64,000 bases of DNA from an uncultured Pelagibacteraceae bacterium (GTDB lineage Bacteria; Pseudomonadota; Alphaproteobacteria; Pelagibacterales; Pelagibacteraceae): NCBI GenBank assembly GCA_902598315.1, contig CACKBP010000002.1, positions 62,001 to 126,000 of the forward strand, read 5' to 3'. This document shows, piece by piece, positions 60,988-62,961 of this stretch (positions within the stretch are counted from its first letter, which is position 1; every line of letters begins with the position of its first letter). The notes beneath the pieces were generated by a model. That model was not told the origin of the DNA. It searched no databases and saw only the letters and a list, made by a program, of their open reading frames with translations. A program made the translations under genes and the position numbers.

Positions 60988-61028
60988 GTGCCCTCGTGGT
61001 GAAATTGGTAGACACAAAGGACTTAAAA
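60988..61028 (+). repeat. Left copy of 41-base tRNA-Leu direct repeat (island boundary)
   Basis: The 41 bases 60988-61028 are identical to 62874-62914. They cover the 5' end of tRNA-Leu(UAA) through the anticodon loop. This is the left boundary of a 1.85-kb segment holding two genes. After it the sequence no longer matches any tRNA. Confidence 0.9.
60990..61028 (+). pseudogene. 5' half of tRNA-Leu(UAA), truncated
   Basis: From GCCCTCG through the D-arm to the anticodon loop ACTTAAAA, identical to the intact gene at 62876, then broken: the variable arm, T-arm and acceptor 3' strand are missing. It cannot fold as a tRNA. Confidence 0.9.
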
Positions 61029-61240
61029 CACCAGGGATTCACATTTCTTATTGTCTCGGACAGTCTCAGGTAGTCTCAAAACATTATCAATCTTAACTTT
61101 CTTATTTAACCTTTCAATTAACATTAGAAATCAAGACAAATTAATTTGTGTAGACTAGGTGCAAACTAGGAGACAGAAAGGGAAAATTTGGTAAGATTAT
61201 TTATTGAAAAAACTTTTAAAATATAAATAAGGAGGTTGAT
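61029..61240. other. Island left end with GTCTC array and repeat
   Basis: No gene is seen in these 212 bases. GTCTC occurs at 61053, 61063 and 61073 (exact 10-base period). Then comes a 35-base element (61152-61186) repeated at 62771-62805 with three differences. A strong AAGGAGG at 61229-61235 serves the next gene. The right half is plain AT-rich DNA. A binding-site array for an integrase or regulator is possible. Confidence 0.6.
61152..61186. repeat. Island inner direct repeat, left copy
   Basis: The first 22 bases (61152-61173) are identical to 62771-62792 and the next 13 match with three differences. The core contains ACTAGG twice, 11 bases apart (actaggtgcaaactagg). The pair encloses both island genes inside the tRNA repeats, so the island has nested borders. 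Confidence 0.85.
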
Positions 61241-61555
61241 ATGGGAATACTAGTCAAAGGTGAAATTACAATTACTAAAGGATTTAAAACATGGAAAGAG
61301 ATGGTCTATGCGCAGGATGGAAAATTAAAAGAGCATGGAATAAAATTTGTTTTTGCAGGCACACAAAAAGATGACCCGACAAAACTTCATACAGTAATGC
61401 AATTTCCAAACATGGAAGCACTCCAAGCTTTTAAGGATGATAAAGAACTTGCTGAGAAAAGAAAGGAAGCTGGAGCTGTTTTAGAAACTGCTGTAATGAC
61501 TCCAATGTCAGATGAGCATCTTGCTAACTATCCAGATGCATATATTAAAAATTAA
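61241..61555 (+). CDS. Small DUF3764-like protein (island cargo)
   Basis: The 104-residue soluble protein starts GILVKGEITITKGFKTWKEM and contains FVFAGTQKDDPTKLHTVMQFPNMEALQAF, followed by a helix and ETAVMTPMSDEHL. The pattern of strand-helix-strand with KDDP and a final T-V-M-T strand resembles the small DUF3764 family and, more loosely, dimeric alpha/beta-barrel proteins. Function unknown. It has an unusually strong ribosome site and abuts the next gene with no gap. Confidence 0.75.
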   Translation: MGILVKGEITITKGFKTWKEMVYAQDGKLKEHGIKFVFAGTQKDDPTKLHTVMQFPNMEALQAFKDDKELAEKRKEAGAVLETAVMTPMSDEHLANYPDAYIKN

Positions 61556-62746
61556 ATGAAAAAACTTCTAATGATCATAGTTCTGGGTTTTTTGTGGAGC
61601 ACCACCTTAATTGCAACACCACCAAAAAATAAATGGTCTCCTTCGTTAGAAAGATGGAAGAAGGATTTTCCAAAAGCAGAATACCCTCCTAATGATTGCA
61701 AGTTTTGCACAGAAAGACACGATTATTGGGCTCATGGCTATTACCGTAAAGCAAGTTTGAAAAATAGAGATCACAAAAATAATGGAGGGTTAAAAAGAAT
61801 TGTAATACAACCAGCAAAAAAAACAATCAGACCAATTAAAAAAAATATAAAACCTCTTCCAAAAGAAATTTATGATTATGTATATTACAGAGATATCTCT
61901 AGTTTGATGGTATTTGATAAAGGAGAATTAATTCACGATTGGAAAAGAGATTATATTTTTAATAACAAACCTATAAATGGTGAGTCTAGGAGCAAATCAA
62001 TAGTTGGTGTTGCTGCTTTAAAAATGGCTTGTCAAAATATTTTAGATTTAGATAAAACTCATGGTGATTACTCTCCAGAAATTAAAGACTCATTTTATGG
62101 CCATGTAAAATTAAAAGACTCCTTAAATATGTTGGCTAGAGATCAATTTGTAATAAATTATAATATTTTAAAGGAAACACACAGAAAGAAATCTGACTTA
62201 ACAACTATTCTTAATAAGCACCCTAAAAAATTAGAAACAGAAGGACCAAAAGAATTTAAATACTCAAATCCTAATACTGATTTAATAACATTAGATATGA
62301 TCAATGTATTAGGAGGAAAAAAGAAGTTTGCTAAATGGTTTCAAAAAAATATTTCAGAAACTGCAGGTTTTGAGTCAAAGGGTAAAATATTATTAGACAA
62401 AAAGGGAGTTCCAATATCATCGTCATCTATCATGCTTACTAGAGAAGATTGGCTAAGGTTTGGAATATACGTTATTGAATTAATGAAGGATAAAAACTCT
62501 TGTGAGGCAAAAAAGTTACAAGAGGCTTTTAAGAATGCCGTTCCCACTAAGAAAAAATTTGCTCCTAAATATGCAATGTTCTTTTGGTTAAATGGGTATA
62601 ATGTAGAAAATTTAGTTCAAATGAGAGGACACGGTTTAAGACTATCTTTAATTGATTGGAAAAATGACAAAATAATTCAGACGAATGGTTTTGCTATTAG
62701 TTGGAAACCTCAAGAATTAGTAAATCTTGTTTGGAAACAAAACTAA
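61556..62746 (+). CDS. Secreted serine hydrolase, beta-lactamase/penicillin-binding fold (island cargo)
   Basis: A 396-residue protein with a signal peptide (LLMIIVLGFLWSTTLIA, about 1-20). Catalytic motifs of the class C beta-lactamase/6-aminohexanoate hydrolase group are present: Ser144-Arg-Ser-Lys147 (SRSKS), Tyr236-Ser-Asn238 (KYSNPNTD) and a late RGHGLRL. An N-terminal CKFC pair (Cys48/Cys51) and a basic linker (about 79-102) precede the catalytic part. It may act as an esterase, amidase or peptidase in the periplasm; not necessarily antibiotic resistance. It starts directly at the preceding stop. Confidence 0.8.
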   Translation: MKKLLMIIVLGFLWSTTLIATPPKNKWSPSLERWKKDFPKAEYPPNDCKFCTERHDYWAHGYYRKASLKNRDHKNNGGLKRIVIQPAKKTIRPIKKNIKPLPKEIYDYVYYRDISSLMVFDKGELIHDWKRDYIFNNKPINGESRSKSIVGVAALKMACQNILDLDKTHGDYSPEIKDSFYGHVKLKDSLNMLARDQFVINYNILKETHRKKSDLTTILNKHPKKLETEGPKEFKYSNPNTDLITLDMINVLGGKKKFAKWFQKNISETAGFESKGKILLDKKGVPISSSSIMLTREDWLRFGIYVIELMKDKNSCEAKKLQEAFKNAVPTKKKFAPKYAMFFWLNGYNVENLVQMRGHGLRLSLIDWKNDKIIQTNGFAISWKPQELVNLVWKQN

Positions 62747-62770
62747 CTTATTGTCCTGTAAAATATGGGA

Positions 62771-62805
62771 AGACTAGGTGCAAACTAGGAGATAGAGACG
62801 GAAAA
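62771..62805. repeat. Island inner direct repeat, right copy
   Basis: Matches 61152-61186; first 22 bases identical. It lies 24 bases after the serine hydrolase stop and 68 before the tRNA-Leu repeat. The rest of the region 62747-62873 shows no gene. Confidence 0.85.
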
Positions 62806-62873
62806 TAATTTTTTTTTACTTCTTCAAAACTCTTGTGTATTAATATATTAACAATAACAACAAAAATAACGAC

Positions 62874-62914
62874 GTGCCCTCGTGGTGAAATTGGTAGACA
62901 CAAAGGACTTAAAA
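62874..62914 (+). repeat. Right copy of 41-base tRNA-Leu direct repeat
   Basis: Identical to 60988-61028, continuing here into the full tRNA-Leu gene. It marks the right border of the mini-island. Confidence 0.9.
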
Positions 62915-62961
62915 TCCTTGCCCTTTTGGGAGTGCCAGTTCGAGTCTGGCCGAGGGCACCA
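62876..62961 (+). tRNA. tRNA-Leu(UAA)
   Basis: An 86-base class II tRNA. Acceptor GCCCTCG pairs with CGAGGGC (62951-62957), discriminator A, then encoded CCA at 62959-62961. D-loop TGGTAGACAC, anticodon loop ACTTAAAA with TAA, long variable arm (CCTTGCCCTTTTGGGAG region) and T-loop GTTCGAGTC are all in place. It decodes UUA/UUG, the main Leu codons in AT-rich DNA. Confidence 0.96.

Follow-up and report, generated by a model that had tools for sequence, protein, structure and literature searches.

We conclude that positions 60988-62961 of the 64-kb stretch of Pelagibacteraceae DNA that we analyzed (the window) are a site-specific integrative element, and that its attachment core is a 41-bp repeat of the 5' half of a tRNA gene, up to the anticodon loop. 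Between the attL and attR cores there are two cargo genes and no integrase, the ends of the element match the attP of satellite-like elements, empty sites exist in congeners, and near-identical copies are present in divergent genomes. It is likely that 60988-62914 is a non-autonomous, site-specific integrative cassette that occupies the tRNA-Leu(UAA) gene of a SAR11 bacterium and that it is mobilised by a satellite integrase; the mobilising step is the part that we infer.

SAR11 are among the most abundant groups of bacteria. Their genomes are small and streamlined, and their pools of flexible genes are large. To our knowledge, the movement of their flexible genes is poorly known. The element that we describe is a concrete vehicle for such genes: it has defined ends, one target site, and a candidate integrase, there are clear cases of recent transfer, and the tRNA-Leu(UAA) site is occupied in most of the sampled genomes. 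Who moves the flexible genes of SAR11 becomes a testable question, at the bench, in single-cell reads, or in virome reads.

The element and its target site

The duplication of the 5' half of tRNA-Leu(UAA) that an earlier note on this DNA had described is real: the 41 bases at 60988-61028 (the attL core) and at 62874-62914 (the attR core) are identical, and a perfect repeat of half a tRNA cannot be chance. Only the right copy continues into a full tRNA, as the note had stated, and ARAGORN places the only tRNA gene of the window, tRNA-Leu(UAA), at 62876-62961 (+ strand, as are the other parts of the window's element given below). A fragment of 23-41 bp of this tRNA recurs beside tRNA-Leu(UAA) in many relatives. 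The core ends in the anticodon loop, which in the intact gene is flanked by the anticodon stem (AAGGA-CTTAAAA-TCCTT). A stem-flanked anticodon loop is the usual layout of a crossover site for tyrosine integrases. As an aside, the variable arm of tRNA-Leu(UAA) has three forms among SAR11 genomes (CCTTTTGGG, CGCTTGCGG, and CATTTATGG).

In place of the 3' half of the tRNA, the attL core is followed by a conserved block (61029-61052, CACCAGGGATTCAC...) with GGATTCAC at +7, which is common to other cassettes and to the circular contigs L057, L089, and L098. Next are three GTCTC repeats with an exact spacing of 10 bp (61053-61077, starting at 61053, 61063, and 61073). These are candidate arm sites for an integrase, and their offsets from the core (+25, +35, and +45) are also found in L057, L089, L267, and L283. 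There is a second, inner repeat that is absent from the earlier note: AGACTAGGTGCAAACTAGGAGA occurs at 61152 and 62771, near both ends of the element. The left inner arm (61152-61188) consists of tandem 11-bp units, AGACTAGGTGC-AAACTAGGAGA with the tail CAGAAAGGGAAAAT, at a position of about +125 that is fixed across elements. The right inner arm (62771-62807), fixed at -105, is AGACTAGGTGC-AAACTAGGAGA with the tail TAGAGACGGAAAAT, so its variable letters are those of the left arm. A promoter-like block, TTTACT-N17-TATTAA (62815-62843), is a candidate replacement promoter for the tRNA. It is conserved in the consensus of 34 right ends of type RE1 and 59 of type RE2, and in both of these main types the block can be read as TTTACT-N17-TATTAA or TATAAA. 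Its function is our reading of the letters, because a generic scan for sigma-70 promoters missed the block and found nothing above chance.

The two genes between the cores are co-oriented, and neither is an integrase, in agreement with the note. Gene 1 (61241-61555, 104 amino acids) is an open reading frame that matches DUF3764 (PF12594, E = 1.1e-7). Gene 2 (61556-62746, 396 amino acids) has a signal peptide by eye (MKKLLMIIVLGFLW), the motif S144-x-x-K147, and a weak match, below the cutoff, to the beta-lactamase-type serine hydrolases (PF00144, E = 0.0014). Neither gene has a match in PHROG. Copies of gene 2 that are at least 97% identical are present in nine other genomes, among the 397 genomes of the family, and gene 2 is absent from the viral contigs that we searched. 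Predicted structures of the satellite integrase and of gene 2 had pLDDT of 43 and 34, which is too low for use. We also noticed that the first 44 or so bases of gene 2 (61556-61600, which encode the signal peptide) occur in more than 100 SAR11 genomes without the remainder of the gene, as if this segment were shuffled between genes. Another cassette (L283, 1902-7075) has at least six pilin-like genes with near-identical N-termini (FTLIELLVVVAIIGILAAVGVVAYNGY), and it also carries a DUF3764-like gene that is similar to gene 1 of the window.

Three congeners (G015, G022, and G010, at loci L050-L052) have empty sites, in which the flank is joined directly to the tRNA and the end of the GT9 gene is 63-69 bp upstream of it. 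At this chromosomal position, the order in congeners is a cinA-like gene, the GT9 gene, tRNA-Leu, and then either an NAD-kinase-like gene or a glycosyltransferase. The empty arrangement that the note had proposed to look for (GT9, tRNA-Leu, glycosyltransferase) is that of L052 in G010. The note had taken it as contrary to its reading if every relative carried the same arrangement or if no empty site were known, which these congeners exclude. When we compared the window's flank to the left of the repeat with the tRNA-proximal upstream regions of the empty sites in G015, G022, and G010, the identities were 90.2%, 88.7%, and 95.9%, respectively (the last over 98 aligned bases). The DNA that immediately precedes the window's tRNA aligns poorly with these upstream regions (73-74%, with gaps). 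So it is the DNA enclosed by the left repeat and the intact tRNA that is foreign, and the region upstream of the tRNA is element DNA. This bears out the suggestion that, with the 5' half doubled, the element supplied the tRNA with a new 5' region; both the 5' half of the intact gene and its upstream region are derived from the element.

A family of cassettes and their recent transfer

There are about 50 different cassettes at tRNA-Leu(UAA) in the Pelagibacteraceae, and they have ends in common beyond the tRNA fragment. We collected 56 distinct stretches with two cores, of which 52 have a recognisable left end; after deduplication there were 48 distinct arm windows. Other relatives have different genes at this tRNA, bounded by the same fragment of the 5' half. 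The left end has a GGATT-like motif at about +7, GTC repeats at +25, +35, and +45, and a tandem pair of 11 bp at about +125. The right end has the matching pair of arms at -105, followed by a conserved block that lies 30-70 bp upstream of the tRNA. We sorted 110 distinct intact tRNA sites by their right ends: 34 were of type RE1, 59 were RE2, 1 was of the satellite type, 5 looked native, and 11 were unclassified. The resulting occupancy of 94/110 is approximate, because the sites (deduplicated) were found via the tRNA core, by an exact 23-mer or by homology, with a few found via the ends, and because the classes are based on patterns. Within the genus, all of the right-end matches that we fetched were at tRNA-Leu(UAA) genes or fragments and none were at other tRNAs.

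The cassettes range from 0.7 to 8 kb. Their cargo genes of at least 100 amino acids point overwhelmingly from left to right (122 on the + strand versus 8 on the - strand, including those of the satellite L057). The distance between the core and the first start codon is most commonly 170-180 bp. The cargo includes restriction-modification genes, SHOCT proteins, pilin-like proteins, a transporter, proteases, and many unknowns. Many of the first cargo genes open with a similar stretch that encodes a signal peptide, and the proteins themselves are unrelated. When we searched the cargo with hmmsearch for integrases, using satellite and phage/Xer profiles, the cassettes had none, and the only strong match was in the satellite L057. 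One cassette (L114, 2621-7522) has apparent type I restriction-modification genes, so the tRNA-Leu site also moves defence genes.

Some of these cassettes are nearly identical in genomes that are not. G023 and G006 (L046 and L048) have cassettes of 4,989 bp that are 99.96% identical, while outside the cassette the left flanks of these genomes are 78.75% identical and the downstream genes are 83.08% identical. Similarly, the cassettes of the window and of G025 are 99.13% identical, as compared to 77% for a 3.5-kb block of core genes from the same two genomes, and their surroundings are different to the left as well as to the right. The window's cassette has therefore moved recently, and near-identical cassettes in divergent genomes are hard to reconcile with a remnant that is fixed in place. 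The note's description of a non-autonomous integrative element or tRNA-anchored cassette is supported, and its alternative term, "remnant," is less fitting.

The units of the inner arms usually have the form ACT[A/G/T]G with five variable letters after it; ACCAG and CTCG are less common. The variable letters differ from one element to the next, and within an element its two ends agree. The elements are not fully independent of each other, so the figures for this agreement are not strict probabilities: with arms found by motif (33 distinct pairs), the mean identity of an element's own ends was 0.82, versus 0.52 +/- 0.03 if ends were shuffled within right-end type, and none of 20,000 shuffles was as high; with fixed windows that do not depend on the motif (48 elements), it was 0.846 versus 0.662 +/- 0.013; and control windows gave a null result (0.530 versus 0.531). 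For the integrated satellite L271 and for the second cassette of L283, their own ends matched better than did any of 52 others, and the first cassette of L283 was near the top. The match was weaker for the satellites L098, L089, and L267, which had a moderate match to their own end and for which the own end was not the best. The protein that binds these arm pairs is most likely an integrase, through its arm domain, or an excisionase. If they are binding sites for a protein that is needed at both ends, this would explain why the variable letters agree within an element. Arm matching within elements is also an unusual natural covariation data set for the specificity of recombinases or excisionases.

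Several elements whose arms do not match look composite. For example, L222 (2,142 bp) contains an internal arm whose letters are nearly those of its right end, and in L133 and L244, a different left end is joined to the window's gene 2. This suggests that cassettes may fuse at their arms.

The shared ends and the internal arm remnants in composite elements also resemble homologous fusions, and SAR11 recombines readily. So it could be that cassettes spread by homologous recombination after the uptake or transduction of host DNA, with the cores and ends as short homology anchors and with an integrase that no longer acts; nearly all of the carriers do lack an integrase. We consider this unlikely. 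Identity falls from 99.96% to about 79-83% outside of the cores, perfect homology at the edges extends for only about 40 bp, and the outer ends and their arm pairs are conserved and keep constant distances, as in an attP.

Candidate integrases and the proposed mechanism

The note had suggested a search for an integrase that targets this tRNA in relatives, and such integrases exist, in an integrated element (L271) and in circular contigs (L057, L089, and L098). The contigs are from a viral collection, are 7.7-9 kb long, and appear to be circular because of their terminal direct repeats (99, 123, and 99 bp for L057, L089, and L098, respectively). Each has one core, then GTC repeats and arms at the same offsets as in the cassettes, and then a tyrosine integrase of 544-548 amino acids and a primase. 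The integrase of L057 matches PHROG integrases (E = 4e-20) and PF00589 of Pfam (E = 5e-5). L057 also carries a RusA-like gene, its primase matches DUF5906, and we recognised no structural phage genes in it, including capsid, which is why we call these elements satellite-like. This is a working label, and they are not known to have a helper phage. In the SAR11 single-cell genome AG-903-K07 (L158/L271), a 7.7-kb element of this kind, with the same ends and an open integrase gene, is integrated between a 5'-half fragment and an intact tRNA-Leu, and the neighbourhood is that of the window's tRNA-Leu locus. G301 (L283) has a tandem array at the same core, made up of two cassettes and one integrase-bearing element. 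The profile of the satellite integrase matches just 4 of the 397 genomes of the family, so the cassettes far outnumber the satellites. There were no matches in 61 close relatives or in G000 (83% complete). A partial integrase of the satellite type also lies near two tRNA-Cys genes (G158 C21, L284), hinting that a related clade of integrases may use another tRNA.

We propose that the cassette would be acted on by the tyrosine integrase of a related satellite of this family, one that resides in the same cell or infects it. The integrase would work in trans, or in cis after accretion. The cores would recombine within the 7-nt anticodon loop, and the circle (right arm, core, GTC repeats, and left arm) would be the attP; we did not see an excised circle of an integrase-free cassette. 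The paired inner arms would probably be the binding sites of the protein needed at both ends. After integration, the left end would keep the stub of the 5' half, and the right end would restore the tRNA with the element's 5' half. Integration on the 5' side would separate the tRNA from its native promoter, which TTTACT-N17-TATTAA at the right end would replace. By bringing its own 5' half and promoter, the element might ensure that this essential tRNA stays expressed.

The mobilising integrase might instead be that of a pelagiphage. In HTVC105P and the related phage S35-C6, the 40-bp core lies 84 bp past the integrase gene, and the core of HTVC105P matches that of the window at 40/40 positions. 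However, the flanks of the phage core lack the GTC repeats and the inner arms, both of which the satellites share with the cassettes, so a phage integrase seems quite improbable. A degenerate pattern for the left end of the cassettes had no matches in viral contigs. We did come across a 5.1-kb contig from IMG/VR (L069, 3062-5129) that links a T4-like phoH gene with two SHOCT cargo genes, a right end of type RE2 with the arm ACCTG-TACA, and the tRNA-Leu core. This could be a myophage that carries a cassette, and hence a possible transfer vehicle, or it could be a chimeric assembly.

There is very little chance that the element is what is left of an old, dead prophage or satellite that became fixed at this site. 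It does lack a recombinase, and the only match to PF00589 in its genome is a protein of 320 amino acids, which is Xer-like in size. But it retains matching arms, and copies that are 99% identical in divergent genomes with differing flanks largely refute this idea. Finally, a local tandem duplication of the 5' half of the tRNA with host genes between the copies would account for the direct repeat itself, and it is refuted by the empty sites, the varied cargo at one site, and ends that are foreign to the host flank.

Mobilisation by a satellite integrase is the reading that we prefer for the window's cassette. More tentatively, there may be a family-wide exchange at tRNA-Leu(UAA) across SAR11, in which rare satellites would move integrase-free, promoter-restoring cassettes, the hypervariable paired arms would be an identity tag that chooses the integrase or excisionase, and cassettes would fuse at their arms to give multi-gene units. 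We find this broader picture possible, and we would not yet count on it.

Comparison with known systems

The open-access literature that we searched contained no prior description of these SAR11 cassettes, though one may exist elsewhere. By function only, there is an analogy to integron cassettes without an integrase, or CALINs (PMC11389934): both are integrase-less, co-oriented, in tandem at one site, and presumably mobilised in trans. The cassettes described here have a tRNA core and ends like those of a tyrosine-type attP instead, with several genes per cassette. Attachment at tRNA-Leu is known from the HTVC019P-type pelagiphages and from T7-like cyanophages (PMC3861242, PMC8776855, PMC6811365). 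In the pelagiphages, as in our element, the attP is identical to part of the host tRNA-Leu (for HTVC105P, the 40-bp core), but the window's element has no phage genes or integrase between its att sites, and the phages' arms differ from the ends of the cassettes.

PICMI are minimal phage satellites with int, alpA, and prim genes located together, and they are found at fis (PMC10803314). L057 and L271 are similarly small, encode both an integrase and a primase (the latter with DUF5906 in L057), and have no recognised capsid gene. They differ in that they are at tRNA-Leu instead of fis, and AlpA is suspected only by eye, with no profile match. The window's cassette has none of the three genes. 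Tycheposons are marine elements that target tRNAs, that carry cargo or are satellites, and that have a tyrosine recombinase (as described in PMC10872708). Our satellites resemble them, as they do the PICMI. A tRNA gene borders the window's element as well, but, compared by description, it lacks the hallmark tyrosine recombinase and the other hallmark genes.

CIMEs are defined as decayed ICEs or IMEs that lost their integration genes and kept attL and attR (PMC5704250). Likewise, the window's element keeps its cores (at 60988 and 62874) and its conserved ends while genes for integration and transfer are absent, and in L283 there is an array with an integrase-bearing relative. However, the relative here is like a phage satellite: the nearest integrase-bearing relatives have integrase, primase, and RusA-like genes and no recognised conjugation genes. 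Also, the cassettes (0.7-8 kb) form a large, recurring family with paired arms that are specific to each element.

Additive flexible genomic islands with repeats of tRNA fragments have been described in Actinomarinales (PMC7771536) and in Methylopumilus (fGI-2, PMC10872708). These too are small cassettes at tRNA genes in streamlined aquatic bacteria, with direct repeats of part of the tRNA, and they vary between close relatives. In Methylopumilus, it is the 3' end of the gene for the tRNA that is repeated (PMC10872708), while the cassettes at tRNA-Leu(UAA) use the 5' half. They also differ in that we can describe their full ends, we have a probable source for the integrase, and very recent transfer can be seen.
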